Positions 3,835 to 17,410 of a DNA stretch of 42,115 nt are shown here, one piece after another. This DNA is from Sneathiellales bacterium (GTDB lineage: Bacteria; Pseudomonadota; Alphaproteobacteria; JANQFL01), in NCBI GenBank assembly GCA_028277845.1, contig JANQFL010000057.1, positions 1 to 42,115 on the forward strand, in the 5' to 3' direction. Every line of letters starts with the position of its first letter. Position 1 is the first letter of the stretch. A program made the translations under genes and the position numbers. The notes beneath the pieces were generated by a model. The model did no database searches. It was not told the origin of the DNA and saw only the letters and a program-made list of their open reading frames with translations.

Positions 3835-6084
3835 ATGCACCTAAGCAACTTAAGACTAAAAAATTTTCGCCGCTTGTCAGATGTGAAAGTCGACCTAGAC
3901 AGAGACATTTCGATTTTTGTTGGCGCGAACAATAGTGGAAAAACGTCAGTTGCCCACGCGATGAATGTCTTTCTTGGCGGGACTCGTGACAAGGTGTCAT
4001 TCCACGACATCAGCGCCTGTCGGTGGGCGGATGTAGAAGCCTTTTCCCGCGGAGAAGCAAACACAAATCTGCCAGCAATGGCTTTAGATCTTTGGTTTCA
4101 GGTGGAAGCGAATGACCTACACCGTGTGATCGACCTATTGCCAAGCCTCGACTGGCAAGGCACTCATGTCGGCATAAGGATTGCTTTCGCTCCACAAAAT
4201 CAAGACGAAACTCTTGCGCGCTTCCATGAAAGGCGCGATCAGGCACAACAAGCGGCGACGGGTGCTCAGATCCCCGATGGCGATGAGCTTCACGTGCCCC
4301 CGCTGCGGACACTGTCCGAGTTCTTGGAATCCGAAATCAGACGCGAATATGAGTTCAAGTACTTTGTGCTAGACGCCGCTCAATTCGACGGAGAATTCCA
4401 GCCAAACGAAGGCTATGAGCCCCTGGAACTGCTTAGAGATCAGGGACGTACAGGTAAAGATATCATTGGCTCCCTAATAAAGGTGGATTTCCTCCATGCG
4501 CAGCGTCACCTTTCAGATACTACAGGCAGCCGGGCTGAAGAACTTTCGAGGCATTTGAGCCGCTATTACACTCGCAACCTTGAAAGACATTCGGAAGATT
4601 TCAGTGCAATCCAGGCGCTGGCCGAATCCGAGCGACAACTGAACCAGCATCTCGAACAGGTATTCGCCGAGACACTAGATCGGCTGGCACAGCTCGGTTA
4701 CCCAGGGTTTGCAAACCCGCGACTGATGATTAAGTCGGCATTGAACCCGGCAACGGTCATGAGCAACCAGGATGGAGCGCAAGTCCACTACGCCCTCAGT
4801 GCGGAAAACGACGATTTCACGTTACCGGATAAATACAATGGGCTCGGATTTAAGAACCTAATCTATATGGTTGTCGAGTTGCTCGACTTGCATGCGCAAT
4901 GGCTTGTGATTGAAGACAACCGCCCTCCTCTGCATCTCGTGTTTGTCGAAGAGCCGGAAGCACACTTGCACGCACAATTGCAACAAGTCTTCGTCAACAA
5001 GGTGCTCGATATCCTCGAGGAAGAATCGGACGACCAGGCGAGCTTCCGTACCCAACTTGTTCTGACGACGCATTCGCCGCACATACTGTATGAGCGGGGA
5101 TTTACGCCAATTCGCTATTTCAGACGTGAAAACACAGGTGTCGCACAGAGTTCCACGGTACTTAATCTTTCGGAGTTCTATCAGAGAACCGCGGATCCGA
5201 GTCGCGATTTTCTCGAACGCTATCTCAAGTTAACGCACTGCGACCTTTTTTTCGCCGACGGAGCCGTCCTGGTCGAAGGCAGTGTCGAAAGACTTCTAAT
5301 GCCGCAAATGATCAAGAGCACCGCTCCAGGATTGCGATCGAGCTATCTAAGTGTACTTGAAATCGGTGGCGCGTTCGGACATCTGTTTCGCACTCTCATC
5401 GAGTTTCTAGGCATTACAACGCTGGTCATCACCGATTTGGACAGTATTCACTTCGCTCCCCTGGAAGAGGGCGAAGTACACGACGAAGAAGATGCTGACG
5501 AAGGTGATGATGCAGACGAAGCCACTGATGAAGAAGAACCGGGTGAAGCACTTGCCGATCGCAGGAAAAGAAAGACCTGCACGCCGGAAATGCAAGATGC
5601 CGAAACATCGAACCAGATGCTTATTCAATGGCTTCCGGCGCGGCGGCGTATAGATGAACTCTTAGCGCTTGGTCCAGACGACAAAACTATTGAGGCCGAT
5701 GAGGCCGGACTGGGCGCAGTGCGTGTCACCTATCCTACCACTGTTCAGTTGAATCATGACGGCGAGACCATCGAGCGGGCCGGACGCACCCTGGAGGTGG
5801 CATTTGCCTTTGAGAACCTTCACTGGACACAGAACGCCGACAACAAGGACCTGAAACTGTCCATACGAAATCCTATAGACCTCGCTGACCTAGCGCTTCG
5901 TCTGCACAACAAAGTTCATGCGCCTAGTTTCAAGAAGACAGATTTTGCGCTCGCTTTGCTCACCAAGAATCCCGATGCGTGGATAGTTCCGCACTACATC
6001 ACCGAAGGGCTCCTTTGGCTCGAAGACATACTGGGCCTTACCGAGGAAGATGCAGACGATCAACTGGAAGTCGCGCAAGCATGA
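3835..6084 (+). CDS. gajA: GajA-like OLD-family ATPase/TOPRIM nuclease (Gabija-like defence)
   Basis: Predicted DNA-targeting nuclease, 749 residues. An ABC-type ATPase half has Walker A GANNSGKT (30-37), a signature-like region near 335-350, Walker B LHLVFVEEPEAH (366-377) and an H-loop TTHSPH (411-416). A C-terminal TOPRIM half has VEG (480-482), the acidic DLDS (534-537) and a Lys-rich FKKTDFALALL (699-709) matching the conserved catalytic Lys region. Directly after DLDS there is an unusual Asp/Glu-rich insert (about 544-572). It is longer than the GajA I remember (near 580 residues). The next gene is a UvrD-like helicase overlapping by ATGA, the class 2 OLD/Gabija arrangement. GC and codon use are clearly lower than in flanking genes, indicating transfer. 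Confidence 0.85.
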   Translation: MHLSNLRLKNFRRLSDVKVDLDRDISIFVGANNSGKTSVAHAMNVFLGGTRDKVSFHDISACRWADVEAFSRGEANTNLPAMALDLWFQVEANDLHRVIDLLPSLDWQGTHVGIRIAFAPQNQDETLARFHERRDQAQQAATGAQIPDGDELHVPPLRTLSEFLESEIRREYEFKYFVLDAAQFDGEFQPNEGYEPLELLRDQGRTGKDIIGSLIKVDFLHAQRHLSDTTGSRAEELSRHLSRYYTRNLERHSEDFSAIQALAESERQLNQHLEQVFAETLDRLAQLGYPGFANPRLMIKSALNPATVMSNQDGAQVHYALSAENDDFTLPDKYNGLGFKNLIYMVVELLDLHAQWLVIEDNRPPLHLVFVEEPEAHLHAQLQQVFVNKVLDILEEESDDQASFRTQLVLTTHSPHILYERGFTPIRYFRRENTGVAQSSTVLNLSEFYQRTADPSRDFLERYLKLTHCDLFFADGAVLVEGSVERLLMPQMIKSTAPGLRSSYLSVLEIGGAFGHLFRTLIEFLGITTLVITDLDSIHFAPLEEGEVHDEEDADEGDDADEATDEEEPGEALADRRKRKTCTPEMQDAETSNQMLIQWLPARRRIDELLALGPDDKTIEADEAGLGAVRVTYPTTVQLNHDGETIERAGRTLEVAFAFENLHWTQNADNKDLKLSIRNPIDLADLALRLHNKVHAPSFKKTDFALALLTKNPDAWIVPHYITEGLLWLEDILGLTEEDADDQLEVAQA

Positions 6085-7961
6085 CAAGTCGCATTAGGAG
6101 ACCAGACACCGACACTGACGCTGCGCTGAGAGCTCGTCTTGCGGCGGACGGCAGCCGTCACTTTGTGATGGTCGCAGGTGCCGGATCTGGAAAGACCACT
6201 TCGCTAGTCAAGGCACTCGCCCACATTGAAAATTCACAAGGAGCAGACCTACGCCGCAAAGGCCAGAAGATTGCCTGCATCACTTTCACTGAGGTAGCAG
6301 TAAACGAAATTCGCGGCGATGTCGGCAATGACCCACTCTATCATGTTTCGACCATCCATAGCTTTCTGTGGGAAGTGATAAAGCCCTTCCAAAACGATCT
6401 ACGCGAATGGGTTCGCGCCCGTCTTGACCGAAAAATTGCAGAAAGTCAGGAAAAAATAGACAATCCGAGGACGCAAATGCGGACCAAGGAACGTGCGCGC
6501 GAGGAAATCGATCGACATAGGCGACAGCTTCAGCAGATCGACCGGGTAAAGAATTTCCGGTACGGCACCGGCAGTGACTACAACAATGGCGTGTTAGGTC
6601 ATAATGATATACTTAGAATCGGTCCCTCGTTTATTCACGAGCAAGCTCTGATGCGGCGAATTGTTTCCCAGCGTTACCCAGTTATCTTTGTTGATGAAAG
6701 CCAAGACACCGATCCCGACTTCGTCGCTGCATTGCGCACTGTGGCCAATGAAACAGAAAATGCCTTCTGTGTTGGTTTTTTTGGTGATCCAGTGCAGAAG
6801 ATTTACATGCAGGGCGCGGGTCCGATACCGATAGAGGAAGGCTGGCAGAAACTCGAAAAGCCCGAAAACTTCCGCTGCCCGCAAAAAGTGTTAAGCGTCA
6901 TCAACCGAATCAGAGCAGAAGATGACGGTCTTCAGCAAACTCGAGGCCGCTACGAGGATCGTAACGGAGCCAGTGTACCCGTCGAAGGCACTGCGCGAGT
7001 ATTAATTATGCCTGATGACGAGCGGCGACCGGAACGGCTCGAAGAAGTTAGGCAATGGCTTGCCGAACAAGATGGCGACGAGAATTGGCTTGCCGAAGAA
7101 GATGAAGAGGCACTCCGCCTGCTAGTATTGGTCCACCGTGTTGCTGCCGACCGATTAGGGTTTTCGAACCTTTATTCTGCGCTTAACGACAAGTCCACAG
7201 AATCTTTGAGCTCCGGCATCACTGACGGAACTGCATGGGTACTTAGACCTTTTCTACAATTCCTCCTCCCGTTGCTTATTGGACACACCGAAGGTAGGTC
7301 GTTTGATGTGATGCGCCTCTTGCGCAAGCATTGCCCCAGACTTCAAGAAGAAAACTTAGTTGGCGAAAACATCGCTCAGTTGTTGCGTACGTTACAGGAA
7401 GAAATCGCGACACTTGACGGCATGCTCGCGGAAGATGCTGAAACGACGATCGGTGAAGTTGTTGCGTTCATTCGAGATAGGCGGTTTCTAGTGCTCGATG
7501 AGCGCTTTCAAGGCCTGGTCGATGAATACCTTGACGCGGACCAAGTAACCATCGCTGCGCCAGAAAATGCAGCGCTTCGCTTCATGCAATGCCGGGCACT
7601 AGAATTGTGGGGCTACCGGCGATACCTCGAAAAGCTTTCGCCATTTGCGACACAGCAAGGGATTAAAGGCGCGGAATTTGACAAAGTACTAGTTGTAGTT
7701 GACGACAAAGAGCGCCAGCTACCGGGATTCTCATACGGCAAGTATTTTGGCGTCACGCCTCTGTCGGATAAGGATCAAGAGAATATCAATGCAGGCAAGG
7801 ACTCCGTCATTGGCCGAACGCGGCGACTGTTTTATGTGTGTTGTTCGCGCGCTTTGACCGATTTGGTCGTAGCAATCTTCACAGACGACACGCAACGAAT
7901 GCACCAAGCCGTATTGGAAAAAGGTTTTTTTGAACCAGAGTATGTAGTGATTATCCAATGA
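6081..7961 (+). CDS. gajB: GajB-like UvrD/Rep-family helicase (Gabija-like defence)
   Basis: Superfamily 1 helicase partner of the OLD nuclease, 626 residues from the ATG that overlaps the gajA stop as ATGA. An in-frame start further upstream would lie deep inside gajA and is rejected. Walker A is GAGSGKTT (33-40), motif Ia is FTEVAVNEIRG, motif II is VDESQDT (204-210), motif III is GDPVQKIY (235-242), and a motif VI-like TRRLFYVCCSRA lies near the C-terminus. In Gabija, GajB is thought to sense or process DNA ends and activate GajA. At 626 residues it exceeds canonical GajB (near 490). Low GC matches gajA, so the two moved together. The next feature is a fragment of enoyl-CoA hydratase. Confidence 0.85.
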   Translation: MTSRIRRPDTDTDAALRARLAADGSRHFVMVAGAGSGKTTSLVKALAHIENSQGADLRRKGQKIACITFTEVAVNEIRGDVGNDPLYHVSTIHSFLWEVIKPFQNDLREWVRARLDRKIAESQEKIDNPRTQMRTKERAREEIDRHRRQLQQIDRVKNFRYGTGSDYNNGVLGHNDILRIGPSFIHEQALMRRIVSQRYPVIFVDESQDTDPDFVAALRTVANETENAFCVGFFGDPVQKIYMQGAGPIPIEEGWQKLEKPENFRCPQKVLSVINRIRAEDDGLQQTRGRYEDRNGASVPVEGTARVLIMPDDERRPERLEEVRQWLAEQDGDENWLAEEDEEALRLLVLVHRVAADRLGFSNLYSALNDKSTESLSSGITDGTAWVLRPFLQFLLPLLIGHTEGRSFDVMRLLRKHCPRLQEENLVGENIAQLLRTLQEEIATLDGMLAEDAETTIGEVVAFIRDRRFLVLDERFQGLVDEYLDADQVTIAAPENAALRFMQCRALELWGYRRYLEKLSPFATQQGIKGAEFDKVLVVVDDKERQLPGFSYGKYFGVTPLSDKDQENINAGKDSVIGRTRRLFYVCCSRALTDLVVAIFTDDTQRMHQAVLEKGFFEPEYVVIIQ

Positions 7962-8018: not shown

Positions 8019-8142
8019 TCACTCCCCCTTAAACACCGGCGCCCGCTTCTCGGCAAACGCCGTCACGCCCTCGGCCCAGTCTTTGGTGGCGGCGCAGTCG
8101 GCAAAGCTCAGGGCTTCGGCGGCGCGCTTGGCTTCCATGGCG
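8019..8142 (-). pseudogene. 3'-terminal fragment A of an enoyl-CoA hydratase gene
   Basis: These 124 bases align without gaps to the end of the intact crotonase gene (10407-10530), with about 10 mismatches by eye (near 92 % identity). In frame they encode the same C-terminus, ending APVFKGE and a TGA stop aligned to the TAA of the full gene. Homology stops abruptly after 8142. The fragment begins 57 bases after the gajB stop, so it marks the right border of the OLD/helicase block. It has no start and is not a gene. The divergence shows it is not a very recent copy of the intact gene. Confidence 0.88.
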
Positions 8143-8330
8143 TGGCAAGGCCAGCGGGATCTGTCTGGCGCTTAGCTCCGGACAGTCTCTTCGCAGTCAA
8201 GAGATGGCTTTCACCGTTGGATTGGCACTGCTAGCATCGATGTCAGCGCGATGTCTTCGCGTGAAGAACGCGCTTATGAGCGGTGTCTTCGCCGACATGA
8301 AATACGGTCGGCAGGTGCGGGGAGGAACGG

Positions 8331-9002
8331 ATGGATTCGGAAATCAAGGCGGCATTGGACAAGCTGTTTGCAGCCGACAGCAGCCTCTATCAGGCCCGGG
8401 GTTTTCAACGCCGTATCGGCTGGGGCAAGAAACCGGCCCTGGTCAATATCGACCTGGCCAACGCATGGACGCGGGAAGGCAACGCCTTTACCTGCGAGGG
8501 CATGGACGAAGCGATCCCGGCGGTGCAGCAGGTGCTGGCGGCCTTTCGCGCCAGGGGCCTGCCCATCGTATTCACCACCACCGCCTACGAAATCGTCGAC
8601 GGAGCGCATACCGACATGGGTCTTTGGGGCAGGAAAATCCCGACGGAAGTGTTGCGCGCCGGATCGGAAGCGGTCCAGATCGACGACCGCCTCGAACGCC
8701 GCGACGATGAAATGCTGATCGTCAAGAAACAGGCCAGCGCGTTCCGCGGCACCAATCTGAACAGCTATCTCAATGCCTGCGGCGTCGATACCGTGGTGGT
8801 GACCGGCGCCACCGCCAGTGCCTGCGTCAGGGCCACCGTGGAGGATGCCATCGCCGATGGTTTCCGCCCCATCATCGTGCGCGAATGCATCGCCGACCGC
8901 ATCGCCGGAGCGGTGGAATGGAACCTTTACGACATGGACGCCAAGTTCGGCGACGTGGAGCCCCTGGACGCGGTCCTGGACCACCTGCGCCGCAATCAGT
9001 AA
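8331..9002 (+). CDS. Isochorismatase-family cysteine hydrolase (N-carbamoylsarcosine amidase-like)
   Basis: Predicted cytosolic amidohydrolase of 223 residues. The catalytic triad of the family is visible: Asp41 in LVNIDLANAW, Lys132 or Lys133 in IVKKQASAF, and Cys165 in TGATASACVRAT. The long insert with TAYEI and MGLWGRKIP resembles N-carbamoylsarcosine amidohydrolases rather than small nicotinamidases. A strong GGGGAGG ribosome site lies before the ATG. Its GC content is high, unlike both neighbouring cargo blocks. It lies between two enoyl-CoA hydratase 3' fragments (8019-8142 and 9031-9247), so it appears to be a separate insertion. The substrate is unknown. Confidence 0.88.
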   Translation: MDSEIKAALDKLFAADSSLYQARGFQRRIGWGKKPALVNIDLANAWTREGNAFTCEGMDEAIPAVQQVLAAFRARGLPIVFTTTAYEIVDGAHTDMGLWGRKIPTEVLRAGSEAVQIDDRLERRDDEMLIVKKQASAFRGTNLNSYLNACGVDTVVVTGATASACVRATVEDAIADGFRPIIVRECIADRIAGAVEWNLYDMDAKFGDVEPLDAVLDHLRRNQ

Positions 9003-9030
9003 CCGGCGCCGGTCACGCCCGCTTAGACAC

Positions 9031-9247
9031 TCATTCGCCTGTGAATTGGGGCGCCCGCTTCTCCGCGAACGCCGTCACGCCCTCGGCCCAGTCCTTCGTC
9101 GCGGCGCAGTCGGCGAAGCTCAGGGCTTCGGCGGCGAGTTGGGCTTCCATGGCGTTGCCGAGGGACTGGTTCAGCAGCGTCTTGGTGTTGCCGATAACGT
9201 GGCGCGGGCCATTGGCGAGGCGGCCGGCGAGCTTGGCGGTTTCGGCC
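9031..9247 (-). pseudogene. 3'-terminal fragment B of an enoyl-CoA hydratase gene
   Basis: These 217 bases align without gaps to 10407-10623 of the intact crotonase gene with about 27 mismatches by eye (near 88 % identity). The reading frame is preserved and ends APQFTGE with a TGA stop at the same codon position. Homology ends sharply at 9247, where the sequence switches to AT-rich DNA. The fragment is longer than fragment A and differs in sequence from both other copies, so the three are distinct alleles or paralogues. Confidence 0.88.
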
Positions 9248-9279
9248 GGGAATCAACCTGCTTTGAAAAGTAAATACGT

Positions 9280-10167
9280 CTAAATAACAAACAATGTCAC
9301 AGAATTTGTCAAGTATCCAAACAGTCCTGACCCTTTTTCTACAATAATTCCACTCTCCACCGGAGCTAATATTTCAGCAATACGTTCAGTAAAGCGTCGA
9401 TGTCTTTCAAAATAGTAATAAATTCGGCCTTTGTGCTGCGAACTTCCGTCTTTTGGAACCCGTTGTATATTTATTATATCGGCATCATTGTTACGCAATA
9501 TTTCCGCGATTTTTTTAACATCAACTTCTCGGCTACAGCAATAATATATTCTTACTCTTAATTGCTCTAAAGATTTACGCTCGTCTGAATACTCTTGGTC
9601 AAACTTCCAAGGTTTAAAAAAAGGTTTATCTTGCTGCTCTTCCCCTTCAGCCAAGAAAATCAAATCTGCACTATTAACTTCATCTTCTTCTGCTGGTTCT
9701 TGCGCTAGACTCGACACCTTATGAACTAAATTTGACAAAGGCAGGTTGTGCACCTCTTTATCTACTGCTTCCGCCATTCGATAGTCATTCTTGCTTTGGT
9801 CAGTTTGAAATAAGTACTTGGCGTCATTTGAATAGGAATTTAATGGCATTACTTCAGTATATTTGAGTTCAGCGGCTTGAACCTGACTTACGCCCATTGC
9901 AGCAGCAAAAATTACTCCAGTGTTTATGACAAAATAAATAATTTTCAGAAGTAATCCTCCGCTGCTCCACCGAATCATAACAGCGCCAGAAATCAATAAA
10001 CTCAAGATGCCGCCAGAATAGCGAGGCTCTATGTCAAAATGCGCGTTTAATGCGGCCGAGATCATGACTATCGCTCCAGCAGCGATGCCAGGTGTTATCA
10101 TCGATTGTGGAGTCAAAAAGTCGTCAATATTTACACTAGAAGTTTCAACCTCTTCTGGATCCGCCAT
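9280..10167 (-). CDS. Orphan three-TM membrane protein with a soluble C-terminal domain
   Basis: I do not recognise this protein. From ATG at 10167 it has about 295 residues. An alternative TTG start lies at 10179, but the GGGGGAG tract fits the ATG better although it is close. A short acidic N-terminus is followed by three hydrophobic helices (around ITPGIAAGAIVMISAALNA, GGILSLLISGAVMI and IIYFVINTGVIFAAAMGV). The ~190-residue soluble part is charged and ends in an alpha/beta-looking region (VRIYYCCSREVDVKKIAEIL, then GRIYYYFERHRRFTERIAEI). That pattern loosely recalls LytR C-terminal or SPOR-like folds. The DNA is near 40 % GC where I counted, far below its surroundings. It is the only gene in an AT-rich block bounded on both sides by enoyl-CoA hydratase 3' ends. 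Confidence 0.7.
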   Translation of the reverse strand: MADPEEVETSSVNIDDFLTPQSMITPGIAAGAIVMISAALNAHFDIEPRYSGGILSLLISGAVMIRWSSGGLLLKIIYFVINTGVIFAAAMGVSQVQAAELKYTEVMPLNSYSNDAKYLFQTDQSKNDYRMAEAVDKEVHNLPLSNLVHKVSSLAQEPAEEDEVNSADLIFLAEGEEQQDKPFFKPWKFDQEYSDERKSLEQLRVRIYYCCSREVDVKKIAEILRNNDADIINIQRVPKDGSSQHKGRIYYYFERHRRFTERIAEILAPVESGIIVEKGSGLFGYLTNSVTLFVI

Positions 10168-10406
10168 CTGCTCCCCCAATTTATTAAGAGGTCATAGGTT
10201 GTAACAATTAGTGCACTGCTACTAATTGTAGGCATTTGACATTCGCCATGTCAATTTAGGAGATATCTAGAAGAAGATGTGTATTATTTGAAAAGCGTTT
10301 CCGATGCCCTCCATTCCAATTGGTCATTGACGTCTATATTTTGTTGAGCTGATGAATGGCTAGTGTGACGGATTGTTTTCCGACCAACTAGGCAGATAAA
10401 TACCTG
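10168..10406. other. AT-rich spacer between the orphan membrane gene and enoyl-CoA hydratase
   Basis: About 240 AT-rich bases that belong to the same low-GC block as the membrane protein gene and end within a few bases of the enoyl-CoA hydratase stop codon. It presumably carries the leftward promoter of the membrane gene. No coding sequence, strong terminator or clear repeat is seen. Confidence 0.4.
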
Positions 10407-11201
10407 TTACTCCCCCTTAAACTCCGGCGCCCGCTTCTCGGCGAACGCCGTCACGCCCTCGGCCCAGTCGTTGGTGGCGGCGCAGTCGGCGAAGCTCAGG
10501 GCTTCGGCCGCGAGTTGGGTTTCCATGGCGTTGCCCAGCGATGCGTTGAGCAGCGTCTTGGTGTTGCCGATGGCGTGTCTTGGACCATTGGCGAGGCGGC
10601 CGGCGAGCTTGGCGGTTTCGGCCTCCAGCTCGGCGGCGGGCACGATGCGGTTGATCAGGCCGAGCTCGAGCGCCGTTTGCGCGTCGAAGCGGTCGCCCAG
10701 CAGGGCGATTTCCATGGCCCGCTTCATGCCGACCGTGCGGGGCAGGAAGTAGGTGCCCGAGCCGTCGGGGCTGGTGCCGATGCGCACGTAAGCCAACGAG
10801 AAAAACGCGTCGTCGCCGGCGATGGCCAGGTCGCAGGCCATGACCAGGCTCATGCCGAACCCGGCGGCAGCGCCGCGCACGCTGGCGATGACCGGCTGGC
10901 GCATGCGGCGGAGCGTAAAGACGACTGGATGCAGGCGGTGGATGCGGGCCTCGAACATCTTGCGCCGCTCCTCGCCGTCCATTTCGGCCAGGGTCGAGAA
11001 GTTCTTGACGTCGCCGCCCGACATGAAGTGCTCGCCCGCGCCGCGGATGACGACGGCGCCGACGTTGCGGTCGTGCTCGGCGTCGATGAGGAAGTCGCGC
11101 AGGCCCGCGACCATGTCGTCGCTCAACGCGTTGAGCACCTCGGGCCGGTTGAGGGTGATGGTGGCGACGCCGTCGGCGATGTCGGTCAGGATATCGGGCA
11201 T
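10407..11201 (-). CDS. Enoyl-CoA hydratase/isomerase (crotonase family)
   Basis: Crotonase-fold acyl-CoA enzyme of 264 residues, full length for the family. The first oxyanion-hole segment is GEHFMSGGDVKNF and the second is GAAAGFGMSLVMACDLAIAG. The usual second catalytic Glu region reads GTSPDGSGTYFLPR, with an Asp where classical hydratases have Glu. This recalls PaaG-type isomerases, so hydratase versus isomerase activity is open. A GAGGA ribosome site precedes the ATG. It lies downstream of a metallo-hydrolase and an acyl-CoA dehydrogenase on the same strand, consistent with fatty- or branched-chain acyl catabolism. Its 3' end is repeated twice to the left, marking an insertion hot spot. 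Confidence 0.9.
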   Translation of the reverse strand: MPDILTDIADGVATITLNRPEVLNALSDDMVAGLRDFLIDAEHDRNVGAVVIRGAGEHFMSGGDVKNFSTLAEMDGEERRKMFEARIHRLHPVVFTLRRMRQPVIASVRGAAAGFGMSLVMACDLAIAGDDAFFSLAYVRIGTSPDGSGTYFLPRTVGMKRAMEIALLGDRFDAQTALELGLINRIVPAAELEAETAKLAGRLANGPRHAIGNTKTLLNASLGNAMETQLAAEALSFADCAATNDWAEGVTAFAEKRAPEFKGE

Positions 11202-11226
11202 GATGGTCGGTCCTCTTTTTGTTAGC

Positions 11227-11408
11227 GGCCATGACCGGAACGGTCATGGCCTTACCTCAAGCGCCGGGCGCAGCACCTCCGTGCTGCTTGGCTCGCCGCA
11301 TTAGCGGCGCGGCGCCCATATCTGTTTTTGGGCGCCGGCCAAGTTCCGATGAAGGAAATTCATCGCAACTTGGAAACTTAGCGGCCATGACCGGCACCGG
11401 TCATGGCC
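11227..11408. repeat. Cluster of five inverted repeats in one intergenic spacer
   Basis: Five stem-loops lie in about 180 bases. The first (11227-11251) has perfect 11-bp arms GGCCATGACCG/CGGTCATGGCC. The second (11270-11287) has 7-bp arms. The third (11310-11337) has 8-bp arms around a T-rich loop. The fourth (11339-11373) has 15 pairs with one internal mismatch. The fifth (11383-11408) repeats the first motif with 12-bp arms. The first and last share both the stem and the flanking TTAGC. They may act as terminators or RNA-processing sites, or be a REP-like mobile repeat. No strong T tract follows them. Confidence 0.8.
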
Positions 11409-11444
11409 TGACTTCACACGCCGGACTCTGTCTCCGCGCCTCGT

Positions 11445-12530
11445 TCAGGCGGCGTCGGCGGAGCCGGAACCCGCGTCGCCGAAATGCCGGACCGCGCCGA
11501 TGGTGCGGTACTGATAAACGCCGGCCTCGTCCAGCTCGCGGCCGATCAAGCCGCGGCCCATCAGGTAGTGCAGATGCGCCATGCCCTCGCCGGTGGCCAG
11601 CACCACGTTGGGGCCCTCCAGCTTGCGGCGGAAGATGTGGGGCAGCACGGTCAGCGCGGTCTGCGGCTCGGCGCAGGCGGCGAGCAGGGCATCGAGGCGC
11701 GTGTCGTGGTGGTGGGCGAGGCTGTCGAGCCTTGCGTGCAGGCCGAAGAACGGGTCGTTGTGGGCCGGCAGGGTCAGCGTGTCGTCGGGCAGCGGTTTGA
11801 AGGTGGGGAGTGAGTCGAGATAGAAGCCGAGCGGGTTGGCGTCGGGCTCGCCCGGGTAGACGCCGATGTGGGGCGAGATGTTGGGCAGCACCTGGTCGCC
11901 GGAGATGAGGAGCTTCAAGTCGGCGCAGTAGAGGCAGGCGTGCTCGGGCGAATGGCCGCGGCCGACCATGACGCGCCATTCATGGCCGCCGATGATGATG
12001 GCCTCGCCGTCGACGATGCGGCGGAAGGACCGCGGGATCGGTGTGACGGCGCTCTGGAAGTGGCTGTAGCCGCGTTTCTTGTAATCGTCGATGAGGTCTT
12101 CGCCGAAACCGGCGCGGCGGTAGAAGCGCACCACGTCGTCGGGCAGCGCGTCCTGGGCGTCGAGCGCCAGCATGCGGCCGAAGGTCCACTCGCCCAGCGT
12201 CATCCACAGGCCGACGTCCCAGCGTTCGGTCAGCCAGCCGGCCTGGCCGAGATGGTCGGGGTGGAAGTGGGTGCAGATCACCCGCTTGACCGGGCGGCCG
12301 TCGAGGGTCTGGGCGAAGACCGATTCCCAGGCCTCCCGGATGGTGCCGGTGCCGAGGCCGGTGTCGACGATGGTCCAGCCGTCGTCGTCGCGCAGCAGCC
12401 AGAGATTGATGTATTCCAGCCCGGGAATGGGGATCGGCATGCGCACCCAGAAGACGCCGTCGGCGACCTCGAGGGCCTGGCCGGTCTCGGGGCGTGTGTC
12501 GAAGGGAAAACGGATCGTCTCGCTGCTCAT
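11445..12530 (-). CDS. Metallo-beta-lactamase-fold hydrolase with C-terminal helical domain
   Basis: Predicted zinc hydrolase, 361 residues from ATG at 12530 (MSSETIRFPF). An upstream in-frame ATG at 12647 would add a low-complexity Pro/Arg stretch that overlaps a palindromic operator-like region, so it is rejected. Metal ligands are visible in THFHPDHLGQ (HxHxDH), GRGHSPEHACLY and SGDQVLP. The C-terminal ~70 residues form a winged-helix-like domain as in LACTB2-type proteins. It sits between an acyl-CoA dehydrogenase and an enoyl-CoA hydratase on the same strand, so a thioester or lactone substrate is a reasonable guess but not shown. Confidence 0.87.
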   Translation of the reverse strand: MSSETIRFPFDTRPETGQALEVADGVFWVRMPIPIPGLEYINLWLLRDDDGWTIVDTGLGTGTIREAWESVFAQTLDGRPVKRVICTHFHPDHLGQAGWLTERWDVGLWMTLGEWTFGRMLALDAQDALPDDVVRFYRRAGFGEDLIDDYKKRGYSHFQSAVTPIPRSFRRIVDGEAIIIGGHEWRVMVGRGHSPEHACLYCADLKLLISGDQVLPNISPHIGVYPGEPDANPLGFYLDSLPTFKPLPDDTLTLPAHNDPFFGLHARLDSLAHHHDTRLDALLAACAEPQTALTVLPHIFRRKLEGPNVVLATGEGMAHLHYLMGRGLIGRELDEAGVYQYRTIGAVRHFGDAGSGSADAA

Positions 12531-12654
12531 ACGTCTCGGTCTTTCGTGATCGCCTATGCCGGTTCGGGCGGGTCCCGGCGGGTCTCTTCGGAACTTGGCC
12601 GGCCGTGCCGGAACGGACGGGCGGAACCCCGGCATGAGGCCCCGCACCAGACTA

Positions 12655-12680
12655 AGTTAACGTTAACGTAAACGTCAACT
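12655..12680. promoter_or_regulatory. 26-bp operator-like palindrome before the metallo-hydrolase gene
   Basis: The arms AGTTAACGTT and AACGTCAACT are inverted repeats with one mismatch, separated by six bases. The right part contains ACGTAAACGT, whose complement ACGTTTACGT resembles the core I remember for LiuR, a MerR-family regulator of branched-chain acyl catabolism. A related ACGTTTACG lies upstream of the acyl-CoA dehydrogenase at 14563-14571. The position, 125 bases before the metallo-hydrolase ATG, suits transcriptional control. Confidence 0.5.
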
Positions 12681-12742
12681 CCTAAGGGCATAAGCCGGCA
12701 CCCGCCCTACAGGTTTTCTAAACGTATCCCGCCGAAAACGGC

Positions 12743-14539
<1,797 letters not shown>

Positions 14540-14562
14540 GACCCGTAACCCTCGTATCCGAC

Positions 14563-14571
14563 ACGTTTACG
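14563..14571. promoter_or_regulatory. ACGTTTACG motif upstream of the acyl-CoA dehydrogenase
   Basis: Nine bases identical to the core of the palindrome at 12655-12680, placed 24 bases before the dehydrogenase ATG. Sharing the motif suggests one regulator for both transcription units, but a 9-base match alone is weak evidence. Confidence 0.3.
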
Positions 14572-14766
14572 GCCGTTTGCCCATCATCGGCTTCGGGGCG
14601 CCGGCCGCAGGGACAGAACGCCCCTTCTAGAGCATTTCGCGGGCGGTTGGAACCGCGCGATGGGCGATTCCACCGCTCCCGGCGGCTTTCCCCGACATCT
14701 ACCGCCCGGGTTCAGCAACCATCGCGGCAATGGGCCGGCTCATCATCCCGTGTTGGTCACCAATCC
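14572..14766. other. Intergenic stretch with no recognised gene
   Basis: GC-rich spacer between the leftward acyl-CoA dehydrogenase and the rightward small gene at 14871. It presumably holds the dehydrogenase promoter. No credible coding sequence, RNA gene or terminator was seen. Confidence 0.4.
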
Positions 14767-14792
14767 GCCGAAAACCGGTGCCGAAAACCGGT
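14767..14792. repeat. Perfect tandem 13-bp repeat
   Basis: Two adjacent exact copies of GCCGAAAACCGGT, each ending in the palindrome ACCGGT. They lie just left of a CtrA-type site and could bind a protein, or may simply be a local duplication. Confidence 0.7.
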
Positions 14793-14808
14793 ATTCCGGG
14801 CGCCAGCA

Positions 14809-14823
14809 TTAATGCCACGTTAA
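14809..14823 (+). promoter_or_regulatory. CtrA-type site TTAA-N7-TTAA
   Basis: A perfect match to the full CtrA recognition pattern of alphaproteobacteria (TTAA, seven bases, TTAA) is centred about 55 bases before the ATG of the 86-residue gene at 14871. Such AT hexamers are rare in this GC-rich DNA. CtrA controls cell-cycle and motility genes in this class, so the small gene downstream may belong to that regulon. Confidence 0.55.
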
Positions 14824-14870
14824 TCCGCAGCGCCTAGCTTAGCGCCAATGATTAGGACGAGAGCGCGATT

Positions 14871-15131
14871 ATGCTGACATCAGAACAGAGCCTCGAATTC
14901 ATCCTCGAGAAGGTCGAAGACATCGGTAAGGGCGAAAAGGTCCACCAGCAGGCCGCATACAAGGCGCTGCTCAACCTGACCCAGCGCTGGGCCGAACCGA
15001 TGGACAGCTTCATCGACGACGACCTCGCCATGGCCGAGCAGGTCGGCCAGGACCTGGCCGAGGTACAGCGGCACATCGCGGACCTGCAGCACGCCTATCT
15101 GCGCGCCCTGTTCGGCGAAGCCGCCGCCTAA
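14871..15131 (+). CDS. Small all-helical protein of unknown function
   Basis: 86 residues, acidic, with no transmembrane segment and no Cys. The sequence looks fully helical with heptad-like spacing, for example ILEKVEDIGKGEKVHQQAAY and DLAEVQRHIADLQHAYLRAL, suggesting a helical bundle or coiled-coil dimer. I do not recognise the family. GGACGAGAG lies just before the ATG. It stands alone behind a CtrA-type site and is followed by a Sua5/TsaC gene 63 bases later. High GC and normal codon use argue for a real gene. Confidence 0.75.
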   Translation: MLTSEQSLEFILEKVEDIGKGEKVHQQAAYKALLNLTQRWAEPMDSFIDDDLAMAEQVGQDLAEVQRHIADLQHAYLRALFGEAAA

Positions 15132-15194
15132 GGCACCACCGCCCCGTCACTCACGGGCTATACACCGGCGCACGGTCAGGTAGACTGCACGCCC

Positions 15195-16187
15195 GTGAGC
15201 ACAACATCATCCAAATCCGGCAAGGCCGCCAACGTGCGCGCCGCCACCGACGGCGCCGTCAAGGACGCCGCCGCCTGCCTGCGTGACGGCGACCTGATCG
15301 CCTTCCCCACGGAAACGGTCTACGGCCTGGGCGGCGACGCCACCAACGACCAGGCCGTCGCCCGCATCTTCGCCGCCAAGGGCCGGCCCCAGTTCAATCC
15401 GCTGATCGTGCACGTGCCCGACATGGACGCGGCCCACCGGCTGGTCGACTTCAACGGCCTGGCCGGACGGGTGGCGGAGGCGCTGTGGCCCGGACCGCTG
15501 ACCATCGTGCTGCCCCGGAAAGATACCTGCCCGGTGTCGCGGCTGGCCAGCGCCGGGCTGGACACCCTGGCGGTGCGCATCCCGAGCCACCCCCTGTCGC
15601 AGCGCCTGCTGACCGAATGCGGCCTGCCCATTGCCGCGCCCAGCGCCAATTCGTCGGGCCGCATCAGCCCGACCACCGCACGGCACGTGGCCGACGACCT
15701 GGGCGGCGCGGTGGCGCTGATCCTCGACGGCGGCCCGTGCAAGGTGGGCCTGGAATCCACCGTCGTCGACCTGTCCGGTCCGCAACCGGCCCTGCTGCGC
15801 CCCGGCGGCCTGACCGAGGACGCCATCACGCCCCTGACCGGCCCGCTGGTGAAACCCGAACCCAGCGCCGAGGACGCCGTCATGCGCTCACCCGGCCTGC
15901 TGACCAGTCACTACGCGCCGCACCTGCCGCTGCGCCTCGACGCCACCGACCCGCGGCCCGACGAAGCCCTGCTCGCTTTCGGCCCCGACGTCCCTGCCGG
16001 GGCCGCCCGCACCGCGAATCTCAGCGACACCGGCGACCTGGTGGAAGCCGCCGCCAACCTGTTCGCCATGCTGCATGAGTTGGACGACCCGGCGCTCGCC
16101 GGCATCGCCGCCATGCCGATCCCGGAAGACGGCCTCGGTGTCGCCATCAACGACCGGCTCAGACGGGCGGCCGCACCCCGGGGGTGA
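15195..16187 (+). CDS. tsaC: L-threonylcarbamoyladenylate synthase (Sua5/TsaC type)
   Basis: Makes threonylcarbamoyl-AMP from threonine, bicarbonate and ATP for the t6A modification of ANN-decoding tRNAs. The YrdC-fold domain shows FPTETVYGLGGDAT, KGRPQFNPLIVHV, LWPGPLTIVLPRKD, LAVRIPSHP and PSANSSGRISPT. At 330 residues it has the extra C-terminal Sua5 domain, joined by a linker near 210-235 that contains SPGLLTSHYAPHLPL, the usual conserved junction. The GTG at 15195 is the only start that keeps the N-terminal strand intact. This is a core housekeeping gene. Confidence 0.95.
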   Translation: MSTTSSKSGKAANVRAATDGAVKDAAACLRDGDLIAFPTETVYGLGGDATNDQAVARIFAAKGRPQFNPLIVHVPDMDAAHRLVDFNGLAGRVAEALWPGPLTIVLPRKDTCPVSRLASAGLDTLAVRIPSHPLSQRLLTECGLPIAAPSANSSGRISPTTARHVADDLGGAVALILDGGPCKVGLESTVVDLSGPQPALLRPGGLTEDAITPLTGPLVKPEPSAEDAVMRSPGLLTSHYAPHLPLRLDATDPRPDEALLAFGPDVPAGAARTANLSDTGDLVEAAANLFAMLHELDDPALAGIAAMPIPEDGLGVAINDRLRRAAAPRG

Positions 16188-16219
16188 GACCGGTCTCCGG
16201 CTTTCGGATGAGCCGACTC

Positions 16220-17410
16220 TCACATTTCCCGCCGGTCGACCCACAGCACAGAGATGGCAGCGAACAGTCCCAGGACCGCGGAGAGCAACATCATACCGAG
16301 CAGGCCGTAGGCCGCGTTGTGTTCGGTCAGCACCGCGCCGGTGATCGCCGACATCACGGCGCCGCCGCCGACGGTGAGCGCGCCCGACAGTCCCGCAGCG
16401 CTGCCCGCCAGTTTCGGCCGCACCGACAGGGCGCCGGCATTGCTGCCGGGCATGGTGATGCCGTTGCCCATGCCGTAGAAGATGCAGGCGCCGAACAATG
16501 TGACCGGGTGCACGTACCCCAGCAGTACGATGACGAGCCCCGATATCAAACCCGCACACGCGACCAGCCGCCCGGCGATCATCATGGTGGTGAGCGCATG
16601 GCGCGCCGCGAACCGGCCGGCGAGAAAACTGCCGAACACGAAGCCGCAGGTGATGCTGCCGATGTAGAGCCCGAGTTCCACGGTCGGGATGCCGAACAGG
16701 ACGGTGGCGACGAACGGCGCGCCGCCCAGGAAGGCATAGAAGCCGCCGATCGAGAACGCCATGCACAGGGCATACCCCCAGAACCGGCGGGAACCGAACA
16801 GCTCGGGATAGGCACGGAACTGCTGCCCCATGGTTTGCGACGGGCTCAAATTGGTTTCGCGCAAGTCGAACAGACACAGCGCAAACACCGATAGACCGAA
16901 CACCAGGAACGCGGCGAAGCTGGCGCGCCAGCCGAACAGCCCGTCCAGGGCGCCGCCGAACATCGGCCCCAGCATGGGCGCGATGGCATAGGCCATGGCG
17001 AGATAACCCATCAGACTGGCCGATTTCCGGCTTCCCGACGTGTCGCGGATGACCGCCAGCGAGACCGTGTGGCCGGAAATGATGGCGGCCTGCATCATGC
17101 GGAACAGCAGAAACACGGTCACATTGGGCGCCAGCAGGCACCCGAACGACGCCAGACCGAAAAGCACAAGTCCCGACAGGATCACCGGCCGGCGTCCGAA
17201 GCGGTCGGACAGCGGCCCCATGATCAACTGCAAGGCCGCGGTCATGGCGGCATAGCCGGCGATGGAGAGGTTCACCAGGGCATAGGGGGCGTCGAACTCC
17301 GCCGCGATGTTGGACAACGATGGCAGAAACATGTTCAGGGAGACGATCGACAACCCGCTCAACAGGATCAGCGTGACCAATCGGGGCGGATTGACGGTTT
17401 CCTGGTTCAT
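16220..17410 (-). CDS. Bcr/CflA-family drug efflux MFS transporter
   Basis: Inner-membrane proton-coupled exporter of about 396 residues with 12 predicted helices. MFS motif A appears as GPLSDRFGRRPVIL after helix 2, with RMMQAA and AYAIAPMLGPMFGG typical of the DHA1 Bcr/CflA group. The start at 17410 (MNQETVNPP) has a GGAGAG ribosome site eight bases upstream. An in-frame ATG at 17425 overlaps that site and is less likely. Upstream on the same strand lie a sigma70-like promoter, a candidate 15-codon leader peptide and an intrinsic terminator ending 37 bases before the start, which suggests inducible attenuation. Substrates could include antibiotics or sulfonamides; none is shown. Confidence 0.92.
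   Translation of the reverse strand: MNQETVNPPRLVTLILLSGLSIVSLNMFLPSLSNIAAEFDAPYALVNLSIAGYAAMTAALQLIMGPLSDRFGRRPVILSGLVLFGLASFGCLLAPNVTVFLLFRMMQAAIISGHTVSLAVIRDTSGSRKSASLMGYLAMAYAIAPMLGPMFGGALDGLFGWRASFAAFLVFGLSVFALCLFDLRETNLSPSQTMGQQFRAYPELFGSRRFWGYALCMAFSIGGFYAFLGGAPFVATVLFGIPTVELGLYIGSITCGFVFGSFLAGRFAARHALTTMMIAGRLVACAGLISGLVIVLLGYVHPVTLFGACIFYGMGNGITMPGSNAGALSVRPKLAGSAAGLSGALTVGGGAVMSAITGAVLTEHNAAYGLLGMMLLSAVLGLFAAISVLWVDRREM

Follow-up and report, generated by a model that had tools for sequence, protein, structure and literature searches.

Chromosomal insertions bordered by a duplicated gene end or by long direct repeats have been described in several bacterial settings. In conjugation tests with Escherichia coli, a duplicated stretch of the lacZ end, 109-950 bp long, was present in 56 of 60 selected clones; the explanation offered was single crossover, the circle involved having been linearised, trimmed of some of its homology and re-closed (PMC3240628). 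Insertion with long target duplication has been described for restriction-modification genes of Helicobacter (Nobusato et al. 2000, as summarised in PMC1643837 and PMC4978471); there, accessory or defence genes of H. pylori lie between long direct host repeats and no mobile element is named. For the displaced effector 3′ ends and immunity arrays of type VI secretion system (T6SS) and Rhs loci in Vibrio cholerae, where successive insertions at the same place move old 3′ ends downstream, site-independent homologous recombination has been proposed (PMC5361080), whilst the minimal mobile elements of Neisseria are described as accessory genes presumably exchanged through recombination in conserved flanking genes. 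Here we describe a related architecture in a 42,115-nucleotide (nt) stretch of DNA (contig JANQFL010000057.1 of assembly GCA_028277845.1, from a Sneathiellales bacterium; hereafter the window), where an intact gene for a crotonase (enoyl-CoA hydratase) is accompanied by two additional, diverged copies of its own 3′ end (F1 and F2; Table 1), and behind 11 other genes of the same genome. These repeats are probably the scars of additive, homology-driven insertions that needed no integrase from the inserted element, most likely by single crossover with recircularised DNA of a related lineage.

The resemblance to each described system is partial. As in the E. coli products, a partial gene-end duplication, here presumably also made by host recombination, flanks the insert; however, those tests used a laboratory plasmid with identical homology, whereas here the homology is natural and diverged, many loci are involved and the cargo consists of accessory genes. 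The placement of accessory and defence genes between long direct host repeats is shared with H. pylori, but the present repeats sit at the 3′ ends of genes, show the divergence pattern of coding DNA and appear not to have been identical at birth. In Vibrio it is the gene's own toxin end that is swapped, at constant loci, whereas here unrelated housekeeping genes would be mere landing places. The Neisseria elements involve clean replacement between two flanks that leaves no partial end, in contrast to the partial end that stays behind here.

F1 and F2 each align without gaps to the intact crotonase gene and each ends in its own stop codon (TGA in both, TAA in the intact gene). An earlier note on this DNA had reported such ungapped repeats, with all three stops intact, for the terminal 124 and 217 bases of the gene at about 92% and 88% identity, and measurement bears this out (91.9% and 87.6%). 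Chance can be excluded for these matches because their BLAST E values are about 1e-37 to 1e-75, and a whole-genome search returned nothing beyond F1 and F2 comparable to the crotonase, the next match being of 77 nt. Within their encoded residues F1 shares 35 of 40 and F2 65 of 71 with this genome's crotonase, and 36 of 40 are common to F1 and F2, against at most 25 of 40 (F1) and 47 of 71 (F2) shared with any relative; the comparison drew on genomes no closer than the same class, the nearest crotonases having about 64% amino acid identity (58 genomes of that class and one scan of genome contigs). Since both fragments are nearer to this genome's crotonase and to each other than to relatives, they are ends of its own gene lineage.

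The order of the crotonase and the genes to the right of the insertions (a metallo-hydrolase (MBL), an acyl-CoA dehydrogenase (ACAD) and a YwlC-like gene) is conserved in Sneathiella, in which an SDR gene and a 5-aminolevulinate synthase gene come after a single crotonase gene; the conserved block therefore ends at the crotonase stop codon. From that stop to kefG, all content is specific to this genome among the genomes compared. No fourth crotonase end was found in a search to the left of F1, on the kefG side of a Gabija gene pair, and the three ends thus delimit two complete blocks and one half-bounded block. Accordingly, the proposal that the three ends bound successive cargo blocks holds for a membrane gene and a hydrolase gene but not for the Gabija pair, which has a crotonase end (F1) on one side only; similarly, of the repeated additive insertions behind the crotonase stop that had been proposed, two are marked by diverged 3′ ends and the third, that of Gabija, is unproven. 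The blocks had also been described as differing in base composition, which is so for the membrane gene (GC fraction, i.e. guanine plus cytosine, 0.396) and the Gabija pair (0.514), whilst the hydrolase block, at 0.628, is host-like (0.633 for the window).

The manner in which the copies differ is informative as to their origin. F2 and the intact crotonase differ by 18 synonymous and 8 nonsynonymous changes (proportions of synonymous and nonsynonymous differences, pS 0.34 and pN 0.05), and F1 and F2 by 13 and 5 (pS 0.46, pN 0.05; pN/pS 0.12). Differences are mainly synonymous in most of the gene/fragment pairs found in this genome, and on pooling the pairs 88 of 171 differences are synonymous (pN/pS 0.32), a share exceeding the at most 40% anticipated for a neutrally decaying, initially identical duplicate of a constrained gene (P = 0.0017); the pool includes one pair (class V aminotransferase) counted partly out of frame, which lowers the synonymous excess and does not raise it. 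Most pairs thus do not look like two copies of one target that were identical at birth. As dead fragments drifting after duplication would lose such a ratio, the divergence would mostly have arisen in working genes, and the coding pattern suggests that the copies mostly diverged while each end stood in a functioning gene, either of another lineage or a paralogue. Codon differences private to F2 all fall in the last 23 of the 40 shared codons (P = 0.003), a clustering that is consistent with a crossover inside the repeat.

To place the crotonase locus in context, 2.53 Mb of the 5.39 Mb of the same genome (47%) were surveyed for direct repeats of 60-600 nt with at least 75% identity, lying 0.3-6.5 kb apart. 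Of 20 such direct pairs 14 fit a common architecture, three of them constituting the crotonase set; under the same limits there were four inverted pairs, three of which lay at or near contig ends. In all, 13 events were identified at 12 loci, two of them at the crotonase, each comprising an intact gene, then 0.8-5.4 kb of cargo, usually AT-rich, and then a diverged copy of the 3′ end of that gene (Table 1). Repeat lengths range from about 78 to 409 nt and identities of fragments to their genes from about 79% to 97%, being highest at the class III aminotransferase and the MFS transporter, and extrapolation to the whole genome gives about 28 events. The insertion process is, therefore, not specific to the crotonase, and the view that variable inner breakpoints make an integrase unnecessary gains from the recurrence of the architecture behind 11 other genes. 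Control regions comprised 680 kb from 40 other loci, in which direct repeats occurred in one locus only and were read as paralogous, and 300 kb of E. coli K-12, which gave one locus, rhsD with orphan 3′ ends. At the rate of this genome about 5 events would be expected in 0.98 Mb of other genomes, where one locus was seen (P for 0 or 1 = 0.04), which is no more than a hint that such events are more frequent here than in other genomes.

Table 1. Features of the crotonase locus and of the other loci with the same architecture. Positions without a handle are those of the window; C-numbers denote other contigs of the genome, with the coordinates of the two repeats separated by a slash; nt, nucleotides; aa, amino acids.
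Feature	Position	Strand	Remarks
Intact crotonase / enoyl-CoA hydratase, 264 aa, host gene of the insertions	10407-11201	-	Pfam ECH_1 2.3e-62
F1, crotonase 3′ end, 124 nt	8019-8142	-	114/124 (91.9%) vs intact gene; stop TGA
F2, crotonase 3′ end, 217 nt	9031-9247	-	190/217 (87.6%) vs intact gene; stop TGA
Cargo block 1, isochorismatase-type hydrolase, 223 aa	8331-9002	+	Pfam Isochorismatase 8.7e-33; convergent with crotonase
Cargo block 2, predicted membrane protein, 295 aa	9280-10167	-	GC 0.396, AT-rich
Gabija GajA	3835-6084	+	PADLOC 1.4e-252; pair GC 0.514
Gabija GajB	6081-7961	+	PADLOC 2.5e-233
Thioesterase-like gene	C93 68202/69723		cargo Lipase_3
Class V aminotransferase	C87 31465/32664		cargo membrane protein
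Phytase-like gene	C99 25417/26841		cargo two small AT-rich proteins
nrdJ	C99 55632/58604		cargo fatty-acid hydroxylase and another gene
TPP enzyme	C8 32834/34244		cargo 351-aa protein of no family
Class III aminotransferase	C8 96456/99211		cargo radical-SAM protein and another
groEL 3′ end and terminator	C22 14719-14796 / 16263-16340		cargo Mrr endonuclease (PDC-S02)
sdhB	C7 9778/13861		cargo methyltransferase, TPR protein, hydrolase
MFS transporter	C32 6297/9061		cargo TIR protein
HTH regulator	C40 18571/23237		cargo Fic protein and peptidase
GNAT gene	C42 11361/16854		cargo PtuA-like pair (PDC-M01A, PDC-M01B) and DUF5131, 11673-16463

In all 13 events the copy is found 3′ of the intact gene; 12 of the copies include coding sequence, the stretch shared at groEL being mainly terminator. 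Similarity ends at the stop codon, or about 2 nt from it at most, in 8 of the 13 events, as it should if the DNA behind the gene is unrelated in the two lineages; in the remaining five (class V aminotransferase, nrdJ, groEL, class III aminotransferase and MFS transporter) it extends about 10-133 nt beyond. The inner breakpoints differ between events, and inspection by eye, without statistics, of the ends and junctions of the 12 loci revealed no common target sequence or motif. No recombinase family was recognised among the cargo proteins searched, and the genome as a whole holds two tyrosine recombinase genes, neither on this contig; neither the recombinase within the element nor the fixed attachment core that characterise an integrase island was thus recognised. 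By contrast, the marks of a single-crossover product are present, i.e. the gene is whole, a partial repeat lies at the far end of the insert and no shared target site was noticed. The genome contains genes for ComEC and DprA, whilst no gene for Ku, considered for end joining, was found in it, a complement that permits natural transformation.

We propose that incoming DNA from a related lineage would carry the 3′ end of the same gene together with that lineage's downstream neighbour, that the fragment would lose part of the gene end and then circularise by illegitimate joining, and that the circle would integrate through one RecA-type crossover within the shared 3′ end. The product would be an intact gene with a donor-derived tail, followed by the cargo and a partial second 3′ end; the inner breakpoint would correspond to the circle joint and hence differ each time. 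For the crotonase, two such insertions may be envisaged, with the hydrolase arriving first, from a donor with a more distant gene end, and the membrane gene second. A circle bearing a 3′ end would keep the gene whole under its own promoter, whereas an internal piece would destroy the gene and a 5′ piece would alter the promoter or break an operon; selection could thus give rise to the observed polarity. The single-crossover route is preferred because the E. coli product matches the present architecture and size, and a clean exchange between two conserved flanks is disfavoured, since no partial end would then stay behind. This leaves two host-driven routes, single crossover with a circle and homology-facilitated illegitimate recombination.

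In the second of these, linear donor DNA would recombine homologously within the 5′ part of the gene, with its far end joined illegitimately into the resident 3′ end, such that the fragment is the old resident end left behind. This route, proposed for the successive Vibrio cholerae effector insertions that move old 3′ ends downstream (PMC5361080), likewise predicts variable inner breakpoints and intact stops, and the identity of the initial 38 nt of F2 to the intact crotonase would be expected were the crossover just downstream of the joint. However, such a block of identity at the inner end is clear only in F2 and two other pairs, and the laboratory products of illegitimate recombination are mostly deletions rather than duplications (PMC3240628); we regard it as a possible, though unlikely, origin of the repeats. 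Insertion that doubled 60-400 bp of target, with the copies drifting afterwards, would give the architecture described for the H. pylori restriction-modification genes (PMC1643837, PMC4978471), and the long direct host repeats flanking inserted genes in the 13 events, with cargo that here too includes defence genes, conform to it. The pooled differences are nonetheless too synonymous for a neutral fragment beside a constrained gene, the low pN/pS of F1 against F2 is at odds with both being dead from the outset, and similarity usually ends at the stop codon. The synonymous pattern disfavours simple target duplication for most events, and we give this explanation a small chance. A dedicated, undescribed route that captures accessory and defence genes together with the end of a neighbouring gene and places them behind 3′ ends throughout the genome, with a 3′ polarity that is intrinsic to the mechanism and not due to selection, seems similarly improbable.

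The purifying type of divergence would fit old paralogues equally well, and the earlier note had raised truncated tandem crotonases as an alternative, each cut from its 5′ side by later cargo. This is weakened by relatives with conserved gene order, which have a single crotonase at the locus, and it would require 12 independent arrays, groEL, nrdJ and sdhB among them, each losing 5′ parts only, so that we consider it very unlikely. There is a slim chance that the repeats are an artefact of assembly, in which contigs of co-occurring strains were joined and the gene tail of one strain placed after the cargo of another, since the assembly is a draft in 124 contigs and diverged alleles of different strains would have the same appearance. 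Contamination is, however, 0.9%, a single contig holds three different crotonase ends, and the wide span of identities, together with internal stops in two fragments and the absence of a stop from a third, indicates fragments that have aged rather than living strain alleles. Integrating elements such as phages at icd-type attachment sites bring with them a diverged 3′ end that replaces that of the target gene, which speaks for site-specific integrase insertion into gene 3′ ends. Nevertheless, the 12 targets are unrelated, with no common core noticed by eye, which disfavours a classic integrase island, and in view also of the recombinase census above we judge this the least probable of the explanations considered.

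Several observations weigh against single crossover with a circle as a general account. Neither an empty site nor a donor was seen among the genomes compared. Selection would lead one to expect the strict 3′ polarity, which does not amount to proof, and ComEC and DprA are widespread and no proof of competence. The fragments at sdhB and the thioesterase-like gene are interrupted by internal stops, differ from their genes in a near-neutral way (pN/pS 1.10 and 0.69, respectively) and may be decayed duplications that were identical at birth; together with the stop codon lost from the groEL copy, these internal stops indicate that the set includes older, decayed scars. Finally, max-chi support for a crossover inside the F2 repeat is weak (P = 0.07 at the same sites).

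As regards the cargo, searches of Pfam, PHROGs, NCBIfam and PADLOC assign the 295-aa membrane protein to no family, and 385 alphaproteobacterial genomes hold no relative of it; it is possibly the product of a defence gene. Viral contigs searched with this protein and with a 26-nt crotonase pattern gave no matches. The Gabija pair (3835-7961) has the expected composition, GajA (ATPase and TOPRIM) adjoining GajB (UvrD-like helicase); its arrival by the same insertion route, or membership in the series, is unproven. Behind the MFS transporter, the TIR-domain gene and two partner genes (C32 6781-8966) may constitute an undescribed defence operon.

Some further repeats were noted. Between the crotonase and the metallo-hydrolase lies a direct repeat of about 64 nt (80%; 11222-11284 and 11378-11439), each copy of which holds GGTCATGGCC. 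A reading of the groEL pair as a 5′ event was rejected, as the repeat is the groEL 3′ end plus terminator. A candidate 3′-end event at C52 88346-91052 was also rejected; it consists of two similar tandem genes (70%) and has the appearance of a tandem duplication. Around the 3′ end of each of these genes there is a further repeat, which extends toward the start of the next gene. Repeats in C123 (1-181, 3617-3900 and 14652-14948), C26, C6 and C49 are up to 92-99% identical and for the most part lie at contig ends or where no gene is obvious; they were set aside as dispersed or contig-end repeats and may form a family of repeats in this genome.

A standing question is by what means small defence systems that carry neither recombinase nor transposase pass from one chromosome to another. 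Several defence genes occur in the cargo described here, where they are well represented; they include those for a TIR protein, a PtuA-like pair and an Mrr endonuclease, with Gabija beside one scar; the ends of housekeeping genes, even that of the core chaperone groEL, serve as landing places. If the repeats are scars of homology-driven addition, the signature of an intact gene, cargo and a diverged 3′ end of the same gene could be counted in any genome and would, from a single genome, date the arrival and identify relatives of the donor. This genome thus seems to acquire both accessory and phage-defence genes through ordinary recombination at the ends of genes, with no insertion enzyme dedicated to the task.

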